Assembly: GCA_029781035.1 (NCBI GenBank)
Contig: JAKOXK010000084.1
Coordinates: 1-42,499, forward strand
Length of the DNA stretch: 42,499 bases
Direction of reading: 5' to 3'
Source of the DNA: Armatimonadota bacterium
GTDB lineage: Bacteria; Armatimonadota; Fimbriimonadia; Fimbriimonadales; Fimbriimonadaceae
Positions within the stretch are counted from its first letter, which is position 1; each line of letters starts with the position of its first letter. The notes under the pieces are model-generated. The model made no database searches. It had not been told where the DNA came from and was given only the letters and a program-made list of their open reading frames with translations. Position numbers and translations under genes: made by a program. Shown piece after piece: positions 2,661 to 16,778 of the stretch.

Positions 2661-4142
2661 GTGGAACGAGACCTCTTCGCCCTCCAGGACCGATTCAACC
2701 GCCGAACCTTCATGAAACGGACGGGTGGTGTCGGGCTCGCCGCGCTCGCCAGCATCATCGGCGACGAGGCGTTTGGTGCCCTCGTTCCGAGGGGAACAAC
2801 CCCCGGCGACGAGAAGCGGTTCGGCGGACTTCCTCAGTTCCCCAACTTCGCACCAAAGGCTAAACGCGTCATTTACCTCTTCCAGTCCGGCGCTCCCAGT
2901 CAGATGGAGCTCTACGACTGGAAGCCCAAGCTCCTTGAGCGTCGCGGTGAGGACCTGCCAGCCAGCATTCGCAACGGTCAGCGCCTCACTGGCATGACGA
3001 GCGGCCAGGCGAAGTTCCCGGTCGCACCCAGCATCATCAAGTTCAACAAGTACGGCAAGAGTGGAATGGAACTGGCAGAGATCCTTCCCCACCTGGGTGA
3101 TGTCGCCGACGACCTGTGCCTGATCCGCTCGATGTACACCGATGCCATCAACCACGATCCGGCCGTTACGTTCTTCCAGACGGGAAGTCAGTTGGCGGGT
3201 CGGCCCAGCATCGGTTCCTGGCTCAGCTACGGCCTTGGCACCTTCAACAAGGATCTGCCTGCGTATGTCGTACTTACCAGCATCGGTAGCGGACGCAAGG
3301 ACGACCAGCCCCTCTACGACCGACTCTGGGGCAGCGGATTCCTGCCGACCGAACACCAGGGCGTCAAATTCCGAAACACCGGCGATCCCGTCCTCTTCCT
3401 CAGTGACCCGCACGGCATCGATCGCGAAACCCGACGAGAGATGCTTGACGACCTCATGGGCCTCAACCAAGAGCGCAAAGCCGTCATGGGCGATCCCGAG
3501 ATCGACACCCGGATCGCGCAGTACGAGCTTGCGTTCCGCATGCAGACCTCTGTGCCTGAATTGCTCGACATCAGCAAAGAGCCTGCTTCAGTGCTTGAAA
3601 TGTACGGCCCGGCGGTCAAGACCCCCGGCACCTACGCCTACAACTGCCTTCTCGCTCGCAGGCTCGCCGAACGGGGCGTGCGGTTCGTGCAGCTCTTCCA
3701 CATGGGTTGGGACCAGCACTTCAACCTCCCGAACGCGATCAAGCTGCAGGCGCAGGACACCGATCAGCCGTCGGCGGCTTTGATCAAGGACCTGAAACAA
3801 CGGGGGATGTTCGATGAGACGCTCATCGTCTGGGGCGGCGAGTTCGGACGGACGGTCTACTCGCAAGGGGACCTGACCGAGACCAACTACGGCCGCGACC
3901 ACCACCCGCGCTGCTTCTCGGTCTGGATGGCCGGAGCCGGCGTGAAGGGCGGCCTCACCTACGGCGAGACGGACGACTACTCCTACAACATCGTCAAGGA
4001 CGATGTCTCCGTGCACGACCTGCACGCGACGATGCTTTACCTCCTCGGCATCGACCACACCCGGCTGACGTTCCGGTACCTGGGTCGCGATTTCCGTCTG
4101 ACCGACGTGTTCGGGGATGTCGTGAAGGATCTAATCCGCTGA
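2661..4142 (+). CDS. DUF1501 family secreted protein (sulfatase-like fold)
   Basis: The 493-residue protein starts at a GTG. An N-terminal twin-arginine signal is visible (NRRTFMKRTGG, residues 13-23, then an Ala/Leu-rich stretch), so it is probably exported folded by Tat. The body shows features of the DUF1501 family: FQSGAPSQMELYDWKPKL near residue 75, HDPAVTFFQTG near 165, and the C-terminal WGGEFGRT and GRDHHP motifs. DUF1501 proteins are related to alkaline phosphatase/sulfatase enzymes and in Planctomycetes and Armatimonadota usually stand next to a DUF1553/DUF1549 cytochrome-type gene; none is present here. Substrate unknown. The 1-kb REP/RAYT element begins 3 bases behind the stop, and a second diverged copy of its last 32 codons lies beyond the element. 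Confidence 0.9.
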   Translation: MERDLFALQDRFNRRTFMKRTGGVGLAALASIIGDEAFGALVPRGTTPGDEKRFGGLPQFPNFAPKAKRVIYLFQSGAPSQMELYDWKPKLLERRGEDLPASIRNGQRLTGMTSGQAKFPVAPSIIKFNKYGKSGMELAEILPHLGDVADDLCLIRSMYTDAINHDPAVTFFQTGSQLAGRPSIGSWLSYGLGTFNKDLPAYVVLTSIGSGRKDDQPLYDRLWGSGFLPTEHQGVKFRNTGDPVLFLSDPHGIDRETRREMLDDLMGLNQERKAVMGDPEIDTRIAQYELAFRMQTSVPELLDISKEPASVLEMYGPAVKTPGTYAYNCLLARRLAERGVRFVQLFHMGWDQHFNLPNAIKLQAQDTDQPSAALIKDLKQRGMFDETLIVWGGEFGRTVYSQGDLTETNYGRDHHPRCFSVWMAGAGVKGGLTYGETDDYSYNIVKDDVSVHDLHATMLYLLGIDHTRLTFRYLGRDFRLTDVFGDVVKDLIR

Positions 4143-4145
4143 CCA

Positions 4146-4174
4146 CATGCCTCGGCACGCCCCGTGCCGAGGCT
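4146..4174 (+). repeat. REP palindrome, left boundary copy
   Basis: A perfect 11-bp inverted repeat (GCCTCGGCACG / CGTGCCGAGGC) with loop CCC, at 4149-4173. With its flanking CAT and T it is the exact reverse complement of the copy at 5123-5151. It can form a strong hairpin 6 bases behind the DUF1501 stop, so it may also act as a terminator or mRNA 3'-end stabiliser. Confidence 0.85.
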
Positions 4175-4453
4175 CAAGAACCGCCGCCCCGTGCCGAGGC
4201 TAAAAGGCCATAGCGACCCGTGCCGATGCTAAAGGAGCCCCACCACGCCACCCATGCCTCGGCACGCCCCGTGCCGAGGCTCAAGAACCGCCGCCACGTG
4301 CCGAGGCTAAAAGGCCGGAGCGACCCGTGCCGAGGCTAAAAGGCCGGAGCGCCACGTGCCGAGGCTAAAAGTCAGGAGCGCCACGTGCCGAGGCTAAAAG
4401 TCTGGAGCGCCACGTGCCGAGGCTAAAAGTCTGGAGCGCCACGTGCCGAGGCT
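4163..4453 (+). repeat. Tandem array of REP half-palindromes, mainly 29-bp period
   Basis: The core CGTGCCGAGGCT (one copy has GATGCT) occurs ten times, starting at 4163, 4190, 4219, 4270, 4297, 4326, 4355, 4384, 4413 and 4442. The last six are at 29-29-29-29-29 spacing after a 27-base step; units end in TCAAGAACCGCCGCC or TAAAAGTCTGGAGCG types. The units differ from each other only by a few bases and there are no unique spacers, so this is a tandem array and not a CRISPR. Confidence 0.85.
4256..4280 (+). repeat. Second complete REP palindrome inside the array
   Basis: The full palindrome (11-bp arms, loop CCC) is repeated here in the same orientation as the left boundary copy. It divides the array into a first block of three half-units and a second block of seven, as if the block had been duplicated and then extended. 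Confidence 0.8.
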
Positions 4454-4536
4454 CAAGAACCGACGCCCCGCTGACAAGCTCATGTCAGCAAAAATAGCGA
4501 CTCCCAGCCGCCGCCGCAGCGAATAGACTTTGATCC

Positions 4537-5124
4537 GTGCGGTACCGGCATTGGAAGAACTGGGCCACGAACGGCGAGACCGCTTTCGTGACGACGACCT
4601 GCCTCGACTTCGTGCACGCGTTCCGGCGGGAAGAGATGCGCGAACTGATATCCGCCTTGTTGATCGCTGACTGTAGCCGCTATCGGTCACCGCTCTACGG
4701 CTTCGTCGTGATGCCGCACCACGTCCATTACATCGTCCAATGTCCCCCTGCCAAGACCGTGTCCTGGCTGGTACAACGGTTCAAGTCCAACAGCGCGAAG
4801 CTCGTGTTGCCGCGCCTGACCCCCGAGGAGCTGGCCTGTTTCGACCAACAAAGGGGCCTCAACCGGAGATCCTTCTGGATGGACGGCTTTCGGAGCGTCG
4901 TCCTGGACAACGACGCGATGTTCGACCAAAAGCTCGATTACGTGCACTGGAACCCAGTCGAAGCCGGGTACTGCGAGCAACCCGTACAATACCGTTGGTC
5001 GTCAGCGCGGCTCTACGCCCAAGGGGGGCTGGAACACGAGTCAGGGCTGCGCCTCGATCTGTGCCTTCCCTACTTCGACGTGTCTCCAGAGAGCCTCCTT
5101 GTGGCCAAACCGCTCAGTGGATAG
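4537..5124 (+). CDS. REP-associated tyrosine transposase (RAYT, Y1/TnpA-IS200-like)
   Basis: The 195-residue protein starts at GTG 4537. It has the HUH-type metal motif HVH (residues 62-64, in [11 protein letters not shown]) and a Tyr at 135 in the family motif [10 protein letters not shown], the expected nucleophile of Y1 transposases. FRREEM near the N-terminus and the SFWMDGFRS segment before the Tyr helix are also typical. RAYT proteins nick and join single-stranded REP hairpins and are usually domesticated single-copy genes. Here REP palindromes and a REP array surround the gene, and the stop codon (5122-5124) lies inside the right-hand palindrome. The catalytic residues are intact, so activity is plausible. 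Translation could be limited by the upstream hairpins. Confidence 0.92.
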
Positions 5125-5151
5125 CCTCGGCACGGGGCGTGCCGAGGCATG
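5123..5151 (-). repeat. REP palindrome, right boundary copy (inverted)
   Basis: Exact reverse complement of the left boundary repeat: arms GCCTCGGCACG / CGTGCCGAGGC at 5124-5148 with loop GGG instead of CCC. It overlaps the RAYT stop codon and marks the right end of the element. Confidence 0.85.
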
Positions 5152-5176
5152 TAAGGGGCTTGCCAAGCCTCGTCCA

Positions 5177-5275
5177 CTCGGCCTCGACCACACTCGGCTA
5201 ACGTACCGGTACCTGGGCCGCGATTTCCGTCTGACGGACGTGTTCGGGGATGTAGCGAAGGATCTGCTGAAATAA
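5177..5275 (+). pseudogene. Orphan 3' end of a second DUF1501 gene
   Basis: These 33 codons, ending with TAA at 5273-5275, encode [20 protein letters not shown] followed by [12 protein letters not shown]. This matches the C-terminus of the DUF1501 protein ending at 4142 ([20 protein letters not shown] then DVFGDVVKDLIR) at all but five residues. Most DNA differences are synonymous, which indicates descent from a functional paralogue and not a recent copying error. The similarity starts abruptly near 5177, about 25 bases after the REP/RAYT element. No start codon or rest of the gene is present. Confidence 0.85.
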
Positions 5276-5462
5276 CACGACGTGCTAACCTAGGTTCCAA
5301 ACGACGGAGCTGGGCGCACACCCACAACTATCGCTCGCACCACGACCAAACTTCCGGTCGGCTACATTCACACCTCAGGCTCTCATCGAATAGAACTGCG
5401 CCCTGCCCGCGCCTGTCTGCCCTGTGGTACTTTCACAACGCACAACAAGGTAGCCTCCACAG

Positions 5463-6671
5463 GTGGCTGAAAGAGACCCTAACCTGCTCGACCAGATCGA
5501 TGAGGAGGAACTGTGGGAAGAGATCGAAGGCGCTGACCGAGCTCCAAGGCGAGCAACTCCTGAGGACCTCGTACGTAAGTACTCCTCTCAAGATGGCAGA
5601 ATCCTTGTGCAGCGCAATGATTTCTTGATCCCCAACATACTGTCAATGATTGACAATAGGGAGGTCATGGATCTAGCGCCGCAATACCAACGGAGGTACC
5701 GCTGGAACAACCGCAAGCGATCACAACTGATCGAATCCCTTCTGCTTAATATACCAATCCCCCCGATCTTCTTGTATGAGACTGACTACGCGAGGTACGA
5801 AGTCATGGACGGCCAACAGAGATTGTCAACCATAAAGCTTTTCTTCGGCAACTCATTCAAGCTAAACCAACTAACAGAGTGGCCCGAACTCAATGGGAAG
5901 TATTTTCGCGATTTACCTTCTCAAATTCAGAACGGCCTACGACGCCGAGGACTTGCGGCAGTCATTATCCTAACCGAGAGTGGGCAAAATAAAGAAACTG
6001 CTATGCGCTTGCGCCAGTATGTCTTTGAACGCCTCAATACTGGCGGGCAGCCCCTGAATGCTCAAGAAGTTCGCAACTGTCTCTTCGCTGGGCCGTTCAA
6101 CGACCTGCTCATTGACCTGTCCAGATGTCCGGAATTTACCCAAGCGTGGGACATTCCACCGAGAGAGCCCGACGAGCCGTACCAGATTTCGCGGTTACTC
6201 GAGAGAAATCGTCTCTACTCTTACATGCTAGATTGTGAAATTGTGCTCCGCTTCTTCGCATTTCGGGATCTAAGCTTCTTCTCGTCCGGGGTTAAGCGTA
6301 CGCTCGACGCCACAATGAATCGCTTCCTCAATGTCACCCAGGGCTGGATTGACGACGAAAGAGCCAACTATCTCGCAATCCTGAGGCTGGCCTTGGGAAT
6401 TTATGGTGCAGCGCTCTTCCGGCTGCCAGATGAGAGCGGCGAGCTCAGTGGCCGTCGTTCGGTTGCATTTGCCGATGCAGTACTTGTGGGCCTTCAGTTC
6501 AATCTTGGCAAGGCACAACACCTCCTTGCCAAGGCAAAAGAGATTCGACAGCAAACGAAGCTCCTGCTGGAAGACGAGGAATCATACGCTCTTATTGTAG
6601 GGCGTGGAAATACTAAGTCAGAGACTGAGTCAAGAATCAGATTAATGGCTAACTTGTTTGAGACCATCTAA
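5463..6671 (+). CDS. DUF262 (ParB/GmrS-like) protein, partner of HEPN protein
   Basis: The 402-residue protein starts at GTG 5463. The DUF262 signature DGQQRLSTI is at residues 116-124, preceded by QRRYRW (76-81) and IPIPPIFLYE (97-106), and followed by FERLNTGGQPLNAQEVRN (188-205). DUF262 domains are ParB-like folds with predicted nucleotide-hydrolysing or nuclease activity; in GmrSD the same domain recognises and restricts modified DNA. The usual C-terminal DUF1524 HNH nuclease of GmrSD is absent here. The HEPN gene follows after 2 bases, so the two are one transcription unit. Base composition is clearly more AT-rich than the neighbours, which suggests acquisition by transfer. A defence role is inferred from the domain pair. 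Confidence 0.88.
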   Translation: MAERDPNLLDQIDEEELWEEIEGADRAPRRATPEDLVRKYSSQDGRILVQRNDFLIPNILSMIDNREVMDLAPQYQRRYRWNNRKRSQLIESLLLNIPIPPIFLYETDYARYEVMDGQQRLSTIKLFFGNSFKLNQLTEWPELNGKYFRDLPSQIQNGLRRRGLAAVIILTESGQNKETAMRLRQYVFERLNTGGQPLNAQEVRNCLFAGPFNDLLIDLSRCPEFTQAWDIPPREPDEPYQISRLLERNRLYSYMLDCEIVLRFFAFRDLSFFSSGVKRTLDATMNRFLNVTQGWIDDERANYLAILRLALGIYGAALFRLPDESGELSGRRSVAFADAVLVGLQFNLGKAQHLLAKAKEIRQQTKLLLEDEESYALIVGRGNTKSETESRIRLMANLFETI

Positions 6672-6673
6672 CA

Positions 6674-7459
6674 ATGGGAAGTGCCTCTGCTGGCTTCAAG
6701 CGCTCGGCGCGACAACTCAGGACGTGGCTGGATGTATATGCCACGGCGCGCCAACTTGCCGGATCCAATTACAGCGCTATCACTACAAGACATCCGGTTG
6801 GTGCGTTGGCACGGAAGATCCGTGACGCAGTTCGGAAGGGTGGATCTACAGGCGTTACTTTCGCACTTGAAGGGGCGTATCTAAGTGCGTACGCAGAGTA
6901 TGAACTTGCTGTTCGTGGGATGATTGAGGACTCTGCGCAGCATATTTCTCGACGCCTCAAGCCGTACGCAAAGTGCCCAGATAGTTTCAAGAGCGCTCAC
7001 GAGAAGGGATGCGCTACGATTTTGCAGAGAATGGACTGGGATCAGTTTGCTCACCTAACACAGGTACAGGTAATCGGTGACCTGCAATCCTGCCTCCTGT
7101 CGGCGTCTAAGGGCGACGTGTTTTGTATACGGCCCGAGGCAATTTCGTACTCGGACAGAAATTTCGTGCATAGCGTTGTTCAAGAGAAGATCTCTTCTTT
7201 GGGGCTGAATAGTCTATGGCCGAAGGTTGCGGCGCGTAAAGAGGTGTTGTCTTTCTATGGCACGAAGAACTCGTCGATTGCTCAGCAGATGCTCACGCAA
7301 GAGTTGGATCGAATTGTAAAGCAGCGCAATACGATTATTCACCGTGGACGCACAGCTTATACCCCATCTGACGCTGATGTGAGACGGTGCCTTGAGGTGT
7401 TTGAGCTATTGCTGACTGCTTGTGAAGCAGTTGTAAGAGCGTATTGTAGAGCATTGTGA
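6674..7459 (+). CDS. HEPN domain protein, predicted RNase (MAE_28990-like)
   Basis: The 261-residue protein ends in a helical domain carrying RNTIIH at residues 218-223. This is the RNxxxH (Rx4H) motif that forms the active site of HEPN ribonucleases, followed by the helix ADVRRCLEVFELLLTACEAVV. The N-terminal half (residues 1-200) is also helical, with FALEGAYLSAYAEYELAVRGM suggesting a second HEPN-like helical pair. The overall pattern recalls the MAE_28990/MAE_18760 type of HEPN proteins, which I recall as being linked to DUF262 genes; I cannot verify the family assignment. The ATG is 2 bases behind the DUF262 stop. Likely role: RNA cleavage on phage or stress signal, held in check by the DUF262 partner. 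Confidence 0.75.
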   Translation: MGSASAGFKRSARQLRTWLDVYATARQLAGSNYSAITTRHPVGALARKIRDAVRKGGSTGVTFALEGAYLSAYAEYELAVRGMIEDSAQHISRRLKPYAKCPDSFKSAHEKGCATILQRMDWDQFAHLTQVQVIGDLQSCLLSASKGDVFCIRPEAISYSDRNFVHSVVQEKISSLGLNSLWPKVAARKEVLSFYGTKNSSIAQQMLTQELDRIVKQRNTIIHRGRTAYTPSDADVRRCLEVFELLLTACEAVVRAYCRAL

Positions 7460-8297: not shown

Positions 8298-9191
8298 CTA
8301 TCGCTCATGCGTAACGAACACTTCTGCTCCGGTCTGAGACTTGAGTGAGGCGGGCAACGAGCCCAAGACGCATGCCGCCGTTGCGAGCGGGTCGGTAAAG
8401 GCACCCAGACGGGCAATGACGGTCGCCTGAAGGCGGTTCGTCAGTCCGAGACCTGTCTTCGGGTTCACGATGTGTGAGTAGCGCACACCGCCGATGTCGA
8501 CAAACTGCTCCAAATCGCCGCTCGTGGACACAGCCTGGTCAGACAGGACGAACGGCGGGTGGTCAAGCCCGTGAACCACGATCCTCCAACCATTCTCACC
8601 AGGCGGCGCACCGGAAACGGCAATGTCGCCTCCAGCCTCGACCATGGCGCGGTCCACGCCTTCCTTCTTCATGATGGCTAGCGCGGCGTCACAGGCGTAA
8701 CCTTTGGCGATGCCTCCGAGATCCAGAGTCGTTCCCGCATCAAGTCTGACCGTGCGTCGCAAGCGATCCAGACCGATGCGCCGCCAACCGACTTTCGACA
8801 ACGCCTCCTTGAGCAAATCGGGATCGGGCACCGCGCTCACCTTTCGAGACGCTCGCCAAAGCTTGACGACCGGCGCCACCGTGACATCGAATGCCCCATC
8901 GGTCAGCGTCGAAAACCAAGATGAAAGTTGGAGAACGTCGAGAAGGTCGTCACTGACTTGGACTGGGCCTTGCCCAGCCCTTGCACAGAGCTTGTTGAGC
9001 TCGCTCGCTTGCTGGTAGTCGCTCATGACCGTGTCGAGCTGGGCGAATCGGTCAAAAGCAGCCGTGCCAGCCCGTTCGGCGGTGGCGCGGTCGGTCGCAA
9101 AGAGGGTAAGACGCACAGCAACCCCCATGTGCATTTGGGTGAATTGGAAGCGGGTCAGCGAAGTCGCTGCCAGAACCACCGTCAGGAACAT
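8298..9191 (-). CDS. apbE: FAD:protein FMN transferase (ApbE)
   Basis: The 297-residue protein covers the full ApbE family. It has a short hydrophobic N-terminus (MFLTVVLAATSL), the opening strand MGVAVRLTLFA, then LNKLCARAG, FDVTVAPVVKLW, the LDLGGIAKGYACD motif, the GGDIAVSG motif, and HIVNPKTG near the C-terminus, all expected for flavin and magnesium binding. ApbE attaches FMN covalently to Thr in Nqr, Rnf and related electron-transport proteins outside the cytoplasmic membrane, consistent with the export-type N-terminus. No Nqr or Rnf gene is in the window. The 5' end overlaps the start region of the divergent FGE-like gene; a start at 9134 or 9128 would remove the signal sequence. Confidence 0.93.
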   Translation of the reverse strand: MFLTVVLAATSLTRFQFTQMHMGVAVRLTLFATDRATAERAGTAAFDRFAQLDTVMSDYQQASELNKLCARAGQGPVQVSDDLLDVLQLSSWFSTLTDGAFDVTVAPVVKLWRASRKVSAVPDPDLLKEALSKVGWRRIGLDRLRRTVRLDAGTTLDLGGIAKGYACDAALAIMKKEGVDRAMVEAGGDIAVSGAPPGENGWRIVVHGLDHPPFVLSDQAVSTSGDLEQFVDIGGVRYSHIVNPKTGLGLTNRLQATVIARLGAFTDPLATAACVLGSLPASLKSQTGAEVFVTHER

Positions 9192-9948
9192 CGTTGTCCT
9201 ATTGTGCCTGTCGACAGCATCGCTGGCACAAGCCCAACAGGAGAGCTTTGAGGAGAGCCTGCCTTACAACCTGATCAAGATAAGGATGATCAAGGTGCCC
9301 GACGGCGAAGTCACCGTGGACGGAAAGAAGACCGAGATCAAGGGCCTTTGGGTCGAAGAGACCGAAGTGCCCTTCCAGCTCTTCGAAGTCTGGTCGGCGC
9401 GCCTCGACCTGCCTCCTGAGAAGGTGGCCCAAGGGGCCGAAGCGGAGTCGCGACCGAGCAAGCCGTACGCGATCATGTACACCAACTTCGGCAACCAAGG
9501 CTTTCCTGCGATCTGCATGTCGTTCAAGGCAGCCAACGACTTCTGTGCTTGGCTGTCGGCCAAGACGGGGAAGCACTACCGCCTGCCCACAGAAGCCGAA
9601 TGGGAGTACATGGCCCGCGCCGGGCAACCCGATCCGTCCAATCTGGACGAGGTGGCTTGGTTTTGGGACAACTCTGACGACACGACGCACAAGCTGGGCA
9701 GCAAGAAGCCGAACGCCTGGGGAATCAAGGATGTCCTCGGCAACGTGGCCGAGTGGTGCACGGTGCAGTCGGGGGCACCCGTTGTCAGAGGCGGGTCGTG
9801 GCGCACGAAATCCAAAGACTTGAAGATCGGCCTGCGAGAGGCCGAGACCGAGGAGTGGAACGAGGACGATCCACAACTCCCCAAAAGCAAGTGGTGGTTG
9901 GCGGACGGCCAGTTCGTCGGCATGCGGCTTGTTTGCGACCGCAAATGA
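9127..9948 (+). CDS. FGE-sulfatase domain (SUMF1-like) secreted protein, no catalytic Cys seen
   Basis: The C-terminal two thirds carry the formylglycine-generating-enzyme fold: VEETEVPFQLFEVW, then FPAICMSFKAANDFCAWLS, YRLPTEAEWEYMARAG, GNVAEWC and VVRGGSWR, ending with GMRLVCDRK. The catalytic Cys pair that follows the RGGSW motif in true FGEs is not visible, so the protein is probably a non-enzymatic or differently acting member. The N-terminus has a signal-like stretch (NIVVLLCLSTASLAQAQ), so export is likely. The start is uncertain: ATG 9127 or GTG 9139 both overlap divergent apbE. The stop overlaps an in-frame ATG of the following oxidoreductase (ATGA at 9945-9948), which suggests coupled translation. 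Confidence 0.85.
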   Translation: MCIWVNWKRVSEVAARTTVRNIVVLLCLSTASLAQAQQESFEESLPYNLIKIRMIKVPDGEVTVDGKKTEIKGLWVEETEVPFQLFEVWSARLDLPPEKVAQGAEAESRPSKPYAIMYTNFGNQGFPAICMSFKAANDFCAWLSAKTGKHYRLPTEAEWEYMARAGQPDPSNLDEVAWFWDNSDDTTHKLGSKKPNAWGIKDVLGNVAEWCTVQSGAPVVRGGSWRTKSKDLKIGLREAETEEWNEDDPQLPKSKWWLADGQFVGMRLVCDRK

Positions 9949-9965
9949 ACGAGCGAGACACAACG

Positions 9966-11210
9966 ATGATGACACGCAGGGACTTCATGAAAAAGACGGC
10001 CGTGACGAGTGCGGCCATGGTGGCGCCAGGCGCCTTCGCTTTCACTCAAGACCAGCCAACGCTCAAGGTCGGGCTGATCGGGTGTGGCGGACGCGGAACT
10101 GGCGCGGCGGTGAACTGCTTCCGCTCATCGCCGGGCGTCGTGCTTTGGGCCATGGGCGACCTCTTCGAAGACCACATGACCAACAGCCAGAACCAGCTGC
10201 GGGACAACCTCAAGGACGCTTTTCAGGTGACCAAAGAGCGGACATTCGTCGGCTGGGACGCCTATCAGCACGTCTTAGCGAGCGGGATTGACTACGTCAT
10301 CCTAGCGACACCTCCGACGTTCCGTCCCCAGCACCTTGCCGCCTGTGTCGAAGCCGGCAAGCACATCTTCACTGAAAAGCCGGTCGCTGTTGACGGGCCG
10401 GGCATCCGAGCGGTCCTGGCAACGGCCAAGAAGGCAGACGAGAAGAAGCTCTGCATCATTTCGGGTACGCAGCGCCACCACGATGTCGCTTACAACCAGT
10501 GCATGGACTTGATCCATAACGGGGCGATCGGCGAGATCACGGCGTGCTACGCGTATTGGAACCAGGGAGGCCTCTGGAGCATCCCCCGCCAGCCGGGTTG
10601 GTCTGACATGGAGTGGCAGTTGCGGAACTGGCTGTACTTCACATGGATCAGCGGGGACATCATCGTCGAACAGCACATCCACAATCAGGACGTCTGTAAC
10701 TGGGCGATGCAGGCTCACCCAGTCAAGGCGACTAGCCTAGCGGGGCGTCAGGTGAGGGTCGATCCCGCATACGGCATGGTCTTCGACCACTTCGCGACGG
10801 AGTTCGAGTATGAGAACGGCGTCAAGATGCTCAGCATGTGCCGGCAGATCGACGGCACCGCAGTCCGGGTGTCCGAGCAAATCGTTGGTACAAAGGGTGT
10901 GTCGAACGCTAACACATCGATCAAAGGCGAGAAGCCATGGCGCTTCGACGGCGATCGACCGGACCCGTATGTCCTCGAGCACAAGCACCTGATCGAGCAC
11001 ATTCGCGGCGGCAAACACGTGAACGAGCTGGTTCGGGTGGCCGAGAGTACGATGACAGCTATCATGGGCCGCATGGCTGGCTACACCGGACAGGAAGTGA
11101 CGTGGGAGCAGGCCCTTGCGTCTGAGGTCAGTCTGATGCCTGAGAAACTTGAGTTCGGCCCCTTGCCGGTCGCACCTGTGGCGATGCCTGGCCAGACGAA
11201 ACTCATGTGA
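9966..11210 (+). CDS. Gfo/Idh/MocA family oxidoreductase, Tat-exported
   Basis: The 414-residue protein starts with MMTRRDFMKKTAVTSAAMVA, a twin-arginine signal. After it comes the Rossmann motif KVGLIGCGGRGTGA for NAD(P) binding, and then EAGKHIFTEKPVAVDGPGI, the Gfo/Idh/MocA signature with the EKP catalytic Lys. HIHNQDVCNWAM in the C-terminal half matches the usual metal or substrate helix. These enzymes oxidise or reduce sugars and inositols; exported members are common in Planctomycetes and Armatimonadota, where the cofactor is carried through Tat. An alternative ATG at 9945 overlaps the FGE-like stop. I chose 9966 because it puts the RR motif at the normal place. Substrate unknown. Confidence 0.9.
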   Translation: MMTRRDFMKKTAVTSAAMVAPGAFAFTQDQPTLKVGLIGCGGRGTGAAVNCFRSSPGVVLWAMGDLFEDHMTNSQNQLRDNLKDAFQVTKERTFVGWDAYQHVLASGIDYVILATPPTFRPQHLAACVEAGKHIFTEKPVAVDGPGIRAVLATAKKADEKKLCIISGTQRHHDVAYNQCMDLIHNGAIGEITACYAYWNQGGLWSIPRQPGWSDMEWQLRNWLYFTWISGDIIVEQHIHNQDVCNWAMQAHPVKATSLAGRQVRVDPAYGMVFDHFATEFEYENGVKMLSMCRQIDGTAVRVSEQIVGTKGVSNANTSIKGEKPWRFDGDRPDPYVLEHKHLIEHIRGGKHVNELVRVAESTMTAIMGRMAGYTGQEVTWEQALASEVSLMPEKLEFGPLPVAPVAMPGQTKLM

Positions 11211-11228
11211 GTCCTGTCGTGCGGAACT

Positions 11229-11259
11229 CGTGGGCCCGATGTTGATCGCCGGGCCCACG
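11229..11259 (+). terminator. Hairpin behind the Gfo/Idh/MocA gene
   Basis: Perfect 10-bp inverted repeat CGTGGGCCCG / CGGGCCCACG with an 11-base loop, 18 bases behind the stop at 11210, followed by TTGATCATCGTT. No long T run, so efficiency is uncertain. Confidence 0.6.
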
Positions 11260-11461
11260 TTGATCATCGTTCCCGGGTATGAATGGGGCAAGAGGCGAAC
11301 CGTTCAATCGTTAGTCGCCCTAGTCTGATGTCAGTCAGAAACTTGACCCATGCCTCGCGTCCGCAAAACACTGTTCCTCACGCTTCAAGTTGCTGGGTTG
11401 AAAAACTTCGCAAATAATTCGAGCAAGAGACTGGAGATGACTGAGGAAACTGCCGACAGCA

Positions 11462-11740
11462 ATGTTGAGGGTACCGGCATTGAAGAAGAAGCCCCTACCG
11501 CCGTCCGTGAGGCTTGTGGCCTCCTTGATGGCGTTGGTGGCGCTCGGTTCGTCGCTGTTGGCTGGGGTCGATCCCCTGAACTGCCTGATCCGCGGCGCAG
11601 TCGCCTTCATTGTCGGACGGTCTGTAGCCGGATTCTGGTGCGTCATCTTCCCGCCGAAAAACGTCGAGAAGAGTGGCGATCCCGATTCGGCATCGTCGGG
11701 AGTCGATGTCGCCGAAGCTGCTGACAGGGCTGCGGCGTAG
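11462..11740 (+). CDS. Small membrane protein upstream of the sigma factor
   Basis: The 92-residue frame has a basic N-terminus (LRVPALKKKPLPPSVR) and a strongly hydrophobic centre, LVASLMALVALGSSLLAG and AVAFIVGRSVAGFWCVIF, separated by DPLNCLIRG, consistent with two membrane helices. A charged tail follows. It stops 14 bases before the sigma factor gene, so the two are probably co-transcribed. An alternative reading in another frame from ATG 11437 begins with a plausible acidic N-terminus (MTEETADSNVEGTGIEEEAP) before losing coding character, so the true gene may start there with a frameshift near 11500. No family recognised; flagellar operons often have such small membrane genes before fliA. 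Confidence 0.55.
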   Translation: MLRVPALKKKPLPPSVRLVASLMALVALGSSLLAGVDPLNCLIRGAVAFIVGRSVAGFWCVIFPPKNVEKSGDPDSASSGVDVAEAADRAAA

Positions 11741-15431: not shown

Positions 15432-15857
15432 TCAAGCGGCAGCCGACGGTCCGTCCTCGCCACGGCCTTTGAGCCTGAACATGAGGTGGTCGAGGCTCCA
15501 CTCCCCGCCTCCCACAAAGACCAGGAACAAGAACGCGAAGCAGAAGAGCACCGCCAGCTCTCCTTTGTTCAAGATCGGCCAGAACCCATGCGGAGCATGT
15601 TGTTGAAAGTAGGCAACGGCAAGCTCGCCACACAGGAGGAAAGCGACAGGTCGAGTAAACAACCCGACGAGGATCAAGAAGCCCCCGAACGTCTCCAGAA
15701 TCCCCGCCAATCCCATTTGGGACACGAGCGGCATGCTATGAGGTACACCAAAGCCCCCAAACAGCTTGCCGATGCCATGCGGCATCAACATGAATCCAAA
15801 CACTGCGCGGAACAACGACAGGGCCCTGGGCGACCAAGCGTCGAGTGACTGCTTCAC
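15432..15857 (-). CDS. DoxX family membrane protein
   Basis: The 141-residue protein has four hydrophobic segments: LFRAVFGFMLMPHGIGKLFG, AGILETFGGFLILVGLF, VAFLLCGELAVAYFQQH and ELAVLFCFAFLFLVFV. The HGIGKLFGGFG loop and FGGFLILVGLFTRP are typical of DoxX/SURF4-like proteins. Members are linked to sulfur oxidation or redox stress, but most are uncharacterised. It sits 46 bases behind the cheW-CZB gene and 104 bases ahead of speE on the same strand, so it could be co-transcribed with both, although the functions show no obvious link. Confidence 0.9.
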   Translation of the reverse strand: MKQSLDAWSPRALSLFRAVFGFMLMPHGIGKLFGGFGVPHSMPLVSQMGLAGILETFGGFLILVGLFTRPVAFLLCGELAVAYFQQHAPHGFWPILNKGELAVLFCFAFLFLVFVGGGEWSLDHLMFRLKGRGEDGPSAAA

Positions 15858-15903: not shown

Positions 15904-16740
15904 CTATGCAGCCCTTGCGCCTACAAGGACGTGCTTGGCGATCCTTTGGACGTCGAGTCTCAAGACAATGTCGTGGCCGTCGTTGATCGTGTGCGTCACA
16001 AAGCCACCCGAACTTTGGGCGATGCCTGGCGATTCGTCAAACGACTCCTCCGGGTATGAACACACCGCTTCCACCTGATCCACGACGAGGGCGAAGCGAA
16101 ACCCGGGCAAGCCAATGATGAGGAGCGAGGGAAGCCGCAGCTTCCGATAGGCCTCATAGTAGGTATTGAACTTGTGGACCAACTCCTCCAAAACGGTGTC
16201 CCTCGCACTGTTCACGAGTGCCACCGCTTCATGGATCCTACCTGTGGTCGCAAGGCCCAAGACCTCTTCAGCCAATGCATGAATCCGTCGGTGGGGGTGG
16301 TCGAACGAGTCAATGATCGCTGCCAGAGACACAGAGCCTCCGATCAAACGCTCACGTTCGGGACCATCGGTCCGGATCGTCTCATACCACTGGCCGAAGG
16401 CACACTGCTTGGGATCAAGTGCCAGCTTGAACGGATCGCCCGTACTGGCGCACCGCTTGAGTTCGTCGAGCCACAGAACATGGTCTCGTTCGCGCTGCTC
16501 GACAAACTCCTTGGCCGCTCGGATCTCGCCGCGAAATGAGTTGTATCCAAGGAGCTGGCGCACCTCGATCAGCGGGAGAACGTCCCCACGAAAGTCAGTC
16601 AGGCCAATGCAACCGCGTGTCCCCGTCCCGACCCGAGCGACGTTGCAGTCTTCCAGTCTTGCCAGCTCGACGACGTGCTCGGCAGAGACAGTCAGGTGAT
16701 CGGATCCGACCATGACCCGGACAAAACGATCGTTATGCAA
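15904..16740 (-). CDS. CheW-like scaffold with an inserted CZB zinc-binding domain
   Basis: The 278-residue protein is a CheW fold split by an insert. Residues 5-70 are the first CheW half (FVRVMVGSDHLTVSAEHVVE, then RGDVLPLIEVRQLLG). Residues 75-200 are a CZB (chemoreceptor zinc-binding) domain with the ligands His87 (RDHVLWLDELK), Cys113 (QCAFGQWYE), His150 and His154 (HPHRRIH). Residues 203-275 are the second CheW half (SLLIIGLPGFRFALVVDQVE, then DIVLRLDVQRIA). CheW couples chemoreceptors to CheA; CZB domains bind zinc and can sense oxidants such as HOCl. The protein may therefore make the scaffold itself zinc- or redox-sensitive. It is separate from the main che operon, and a sigma-28-like promoter precedes it. 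Confidence 0.88.
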   Translation of the reverse strand: MHNDRFVRVMVGSDHLTVSAEHVVELARLEDCNVARVGTGTRGCIGLTDFRGDVLPLIEVRQLLGYNSFRGEIRAAKEFVEQRERDHVLWLDELKRCASTGDPFKLALDPKQCAFGQWYETIRTDGPERERLIGGSVSLAAIIDSFDHPHRRIHALAEEVLGLATTGRIHEAVALVNSARDTVLEELVHKFNTYYEAYRKLRLPSLLIIGLPGFRFALVVDQVEAVCSYPEESFDESPGIAQSSGGFVTHTINDGHDIVLRLDVQRIAKHVLVGARAA

Positions 16741-16778
16741 AGTGCCACTCCCAAGAGGACTCGATAGCCCCTTCTTTA

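Follow-up and report, generated by a model that had tools for sequence, protein, structure and literature searches.

Can an adaptor of the chemotaxis arrays be a sensor in its own right? The question is raised by a gene in the window, by which is meant the whole 42,499-nucleotide stretch of DNA analysed here, contig C6 of a 3.42-Mb Armatimonadota genome (98 contigs, 96% completeness). The initial annotation had read its product as a CheW whose two halves enclose a complete CZB domain with His, Cys, His and His ligands, a reading now borne out by Pfam, by the invariance of the ligands, by a structural model and by superpositions. The features of the gene, all on the minus strand, are:

15904-16740, minus strand: cheW-CZB gene, 278 aa, TTG start (open reading frame, Pfam, genome profile search)
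16748-16752, minus strand: GGGAG, candidate ribosome-binding site 7 nt 5' of the TTG (sequence inspection)
16546-16737, minus strand: CheW N-terminal half, residues 2-65 (model strands, Pfam CheW, match to 2ch4_W)
16138-16536, minus strand: CZB insert with entry and exit helices, residues 69-201 (Pfam CZB, model, match to 3t9o_B)
15922-16134, minus strand: CheW C-terminal half, residues 203-273 (Pfam CheW, model)
16480-16482, minus strand: predicted zinc ligand His87 (invariant in 70/70 aligned sequences)
16402-16404, minus strand: predicted zinc ligand and redox residue Cys113, in CAFGQWY (invariant in 70/70)
16291-16293, minus strand: predicted zinc ligand His150 (invariant in 70/70 aligned sequences)
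16279-16281, minus strand: predicted zinc ligand His154 (invariant in 70/70 aligned sequences)

Domain architecture and predicted fold

Pfam matches CheW (PF01584) in two stretches of the protein, with E = 1.2e-13 and 51.3 bits against a gathering score of 23.5; the better stretch is residues 204-270 (profile positions 69-136), and a genome profile search places the other half at 16537-16725 (profile 2-62). CZB (PF13682) is found at residues 87-161 with E = 7.5e-11 and 42.7 bits against a gathering score of 29.4, covering profile positions 1-64 of 64, so that the order is first CheW half, CZB, second CheW half. The 3His/1Cys ligand set is complete (H87, C113, H150, H154), and the Cys motif, CAFGQWY, has Ala at position 2. 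Up to E 10, Pfam recognises no family besides CheW and CZB: there is no GGDEF or EAL domain and no match to the MCP signalling domain PF00015. A C-terminal CheR-like domain is likewise absent from the Pfam matches and the model, in which the protein ends with its CheW half and a helix. Both CheW and CZB are found by Pfam in all 70 aligned relatives.

An AlphaFold2 model built from 70 aligned sequences (pLDDT 95.7, pTM 0.87), superseding an earlier one from four sequences (pLDDT 78.8, pTM 0.68), has strands over residues 5-59 (5-11, 14-19, 23-28, 33-35, 44-50, 53-59), helices over 69-201 (69-100, 114-123, 127-133, 137-144, 147-165, 169-201) and strands over 205-262 (205-211, 214-220, 222-228, 248-253, 258-262), then a closing helix. 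Structure prediction had been suggested at the outset as the check on the nested fold, with flanks that fail to form one CheW as the outcome speaking against it; this outcome did not appear, and in the model the flanks (within residues 2-273) align as one CheW to 2ch4_W over 137 of 139 residues (2.2 Å, Z 18.0; VIA-align). Insert residues 72-200 align to the CZB domain of DgcZ, 3t9o_B, over 116 of 120 residues (2.5 Å) with a Z of 12.2 that is near the scores of generic helical bundles; this match is trusted solely because the sequence evidence agrees with it. Vinculin head, designed bundles and receptor ligand domains, which also came up as structural matches, were rejected as common four-helix arrangements.

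Where in CheW does the insert sit? By profile alignment, the first half corresponds to residues 13-75 of E. coli CheW and the second begins at residue 83, and the insert (about residues 66-203, in the linker following the sixth CheW strand) therefore stands in place of a short loop. It is this loop that connects CheW's two beta-barrel subdomains. The first proposal, of a CheW interrupted by CZB, accordingly holds for the interruption, and has to be amended for its position, which is between two subdomains and not inside a single barrel. In the model, two long helices (69-100 and 169-201) carry CZB out of CheW and back into it.

Distribution, insertion site and origin

The combination had been implied to be rare. 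A scan of genome_contigs, with a query made from the nested form and CZB motifs and so biased toward that form, instead returned 295 pattern matches and 222 related stretches, from which 79 loci were kept. Together with the window and the matches in its phylum these make 84 CheW-CZB records, or 81 distinct proteins after three same-gene repeats (L009/L020, L010/L056, L011/L080). The nested form is found in 80 of the 81, across many phyla, with the insert at the same junction of CheW. When a profile built from 32 ordinary CheWs is applied, CheW halves are recognised on both sides of CZB in 66 proteins, and in the other 15 just the first half; a second-half profile, partly circular in being built within the same family from these 66 and two clostridial proteins, recovers 14 of those 15, at 11.3 to 57.6 bits where shuffled decoys reach at most 6.9. 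The single exception is L089, which is truncated where its locus ends.

One clostridial class provides a less biased sample. CZB family matches occur in 45 of its 391 genomes; loci were available for 30 of the matches listed, a motif filter retained 16 of the 30, and among these 16 six CheW-CZB proteins were recognised (L139, one of the six, being L084 again), all six with CheW before and after CZB. An N-terminal or C-terminal CZB arrangement was found in none of the CheW-CZB proteins checked.

In the window's own phylum, CheW-CZB is carried by four of 291 genomes searched, the window's included; the same-family relative G156 has the gene. In a whole-protein tree the window protein pairs with L009 (98*), and three Phycisphaerae join the two in a starred group of five (98*). 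Transfer between the Armatimonadota and Phycisphaerae groups, or heavy loss, is likely, because so few genomes of the phylum have the gene. For the CheW part only (68 nested and 32 ordinary rows), a tree with the nested rows held together beat the free search (p-AU 0.812), although few of its forks are resolved; a single origin of the nested form is not rejected by this test.

Variants were also seen. L039 has two tandem CheW-CZB genes (3796-5433 and 5839-6693), and one of their products, like the L073 protein (5053-6690), has about 270 extra N-terminal residues with no Pfam match.

Genomic context

The window's genome encodes CheA and CheW on contig C68, a second CheW on C71, eight MCP matches and four flagellin matches. 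One of the eight MCP matches, on C9, is an MCP-CZB and the second CZB protein of the genome (C9:28784; L001 670-1839, G000:C9), 389 aa long in a frame without an upstream sensory domain. No che gene lies beside the window's cheW-CZB gene, and the link to the arrays is for this reason one of homology alone. Motif searches around the 79 related loci (flanks up to 6 kb, often shorter) found CheA in one, an MCP in one and GGDEF in nine, counts made without a background control. Further CheW-domain matches are present in all 36 genomes that were selected among the hosts of these 79 loci (the best in G322 being partial), and in 20 of the 36 CheW-CZB is the sole CZB match.

The nearest downstream neighbour is:

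15432-15857, minus strand: DoxX-family gene, 46 nt downstream of cheW-CZB on the same strand (Pfam DoxX, E = 4.2e-10)

DoxX is linked to oxidative stress, and the two genes are possibly co-transcribed. The pairing was not found beside the relatives in a flank comparison of the 79 loci. A conserved neighbourhood with DoxX or with spermidine synthase was rejected: no reading frame from the window's flanks recurs in more than two of the 79 loci, a count that excludes the cheW-CZB gene and the frames overlapping it.

Conservation of CheW interface positions

Residue counts were made for 68 nested CheWs, ignoring relatedness, and compared with 32 ordinary CheWs, most of them their genome's best CheW and so inflated in conservation, and with 19 lower-ranked CheWs from the same hosts (20 fetched, 19 passing the filter). 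Fold residues are kept in the nested proteins (G46 in 66/68, D221 in 67/68), as in most is the arginine of the NLRG motif (55/68; R51 in the window protein, R62 of E. coli CheW by alignment). Other positions have drifted. The Glu corresponding to E38 (window E25) is present in 30/68 nested CheWs versus 31/32 and 17/19 controls, the Pro corresponding to P120 (window P238) in 18/68 versus 31/32 and 16/19, and the Glu corresponding to E27 in 5/68 versus 7/19 lower-ranked controls and 31/32 best CheWs. A Gly at window position A217 is kept in 17/68, with mostly Ala in its place, and one at H250 in 20/68. The window protein itself retains E25, R51 and P238. R117 and F122 of E. coli CheW lie in the same loop as the drifted Pro, and changing both impairs interface 2 (PMC5181776).

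Possible roles of the nested protein

The reading we prefer, with a probability of roughly 0.6, is that the protein is a soluble CheW adaptor that acts as a cytosolic zinc or oxidant sensor set into chemoreceptor arrays, with CZB grown into the subdomain junction. Its CheW part would dock into arrays of chemoreceptors and CheA, and zinc would be held in the CZB site; the helices may then change when zinc is lost or Cys113 is oxidised, and because both long helices are anchored in the two CheW halves, the change could be passed on to receptor-CheA coupling. The outcome would be kinase output or array packing tuned to the cytoplasmic zinc or oxidant state without a dedicated receptor. Consistent with this are the high confidence of the predicted nested fold; the co-occurrence of CheW, CZB and all four putative ligands in 70/70 aligned proteins, with Ala at the second Cys-motif position; the mostly kept NLRG arginine; and the CheA, CheWs, MCPs and flagellins of the genome, along with the other CheWs of all 36 hosts and the 20 in which no other CZB was matched. 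Analogy with CZB domains elsewhere also points this way, as two of their three sequence clusters are described as having representatives shown to sense HOCl (PMC8262984). Counting against it are the lack of an adjoining che gene, the drift at the E38-like Glu and P120-like Pro, and the small number of carriers in the phylum. The original suggestion that the scaffold itself could sense zinc or oxidants is a reasonable one; it has already been published for CheW-CZB (PMC8262984, PMC10653840).

The same drift could be read differently: the protein may keep its receptor binding and have lost the networking of core units, so that a zinc- or oxidant-dependent form competes with ordinary CheW, loosening or dispersing arrays and lowering cooperativity under stress. 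The relaxed R117/F122 loop, with its near-fixed Pro so often replaced, and the scarcity of the E27-like Glu are what would be expected of such a switch, but the window protein keeps the Pro, the E27 gap to the lower-ranked controls is small, the counts take no account of relatedness, and the drift may merely reflect different partner CheA and MCP sequences; we regard this switch as rather doubtful. Quite unlikely, in our view, is a divergent adaptor working outside chemotaxis arrays, for instance by zinc-dependent binding of a diguanylate cyclase or another partner: the distance of cheW-CZB from che genes and the GGDEF-motif proteins in nine flanks would fit it, whereas the further CheW matches in every host examined, the uncontrolled GGDEF count and the unconserved neighbours do not favour it. 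That the gene is an artefact, either an assembly or annotation fusion of two genes or a chance CheW-like reading, has a negligible probability; the window is a draft contig, but a domain order and insertion site shared by 80 of 81 proteins, together with the high-confidence model, speak against this, and the conserved architecture rules it out.

The adaptor-sensor reading also has a more ambitious form, which we hold only tentatively and think improbable as a whole: in a widespread group of CheWs, a sensor at a single fixed position would link the two subdomains, and its zinc or oxidant state would reshape the adaptor directly and, together with a weakened networking surface, toggle arrays from coupled to uncoupled and back with no receptor involved. 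Should the preferred mechanism be true, chemotaxis arrays would take cytoplasmic zinc or oxidant input via the adaptor itself, and the breadth of the family (many phyla, and sole CZB in over half of the hosts examined) merits testing in a cultured host. Reporters might likewise be built into the arrays of laboratory strains at this site, a defined place where CheW tolerates a whole domain.

Relation to known systems

CheW-CZB is one of seven CZB groups, making up 1.4% of 10,140 CZB sequences; among the classes compared it is most abundant in Clostridia, and it has Ala or no conservation at Cys-motif position 2 (PMC8262984). The window protein resembles this subgroup in having CheW and CZB in one polypeptide and Ala in the Cys motif; compared by text and not by figure, the portion of that article consulted does not state nesting and does not name the window's phylum. 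Fusions of CheW to sensor domains, CheW-CZB included, are discussed as sensors in PMC10653840. One described there, CheWS of Treponema denticola, is likewise a CheW adaptor with a sensor domain acting from within the array, but there the sensor, a CheR-like SAM binder, is at the C-terminus, whereas the window protein has an internal zinc domain.

No description of a nested CZB topology, a fixed site or interface drift was found in the article texts consulted, and no further paper recognisably on CheW-CZB came up in the literature searches. The window protein is thus genuine but unexceptional within a family that has received little study: the combination itself is already named, and the topology, the fixed insertion site and the interface drift are modest additions.

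DgcZ of E. coli (CZB-GGDEF, 3t9o) has the CZB fold and ligand set in common with the window protein, but there an N-terminal CZB controls a cyclase, in contrast to a CZB inside CheW. TlpD-like and other MCP-CZB chemoreceptors, such as the one on C9, have CZB in the same signalling pathway; theirs lies near the receptor C-terminus, that of the window protein in the adaptor. Near the CheW-CZB gene of L087 is a chemoreceptor of 1039 aa (8410-11526) with dCache, HAMP, MCP signalling, CZB and C-terminal hemerythrin domains, placing two metal sensors on a single receptor tail.
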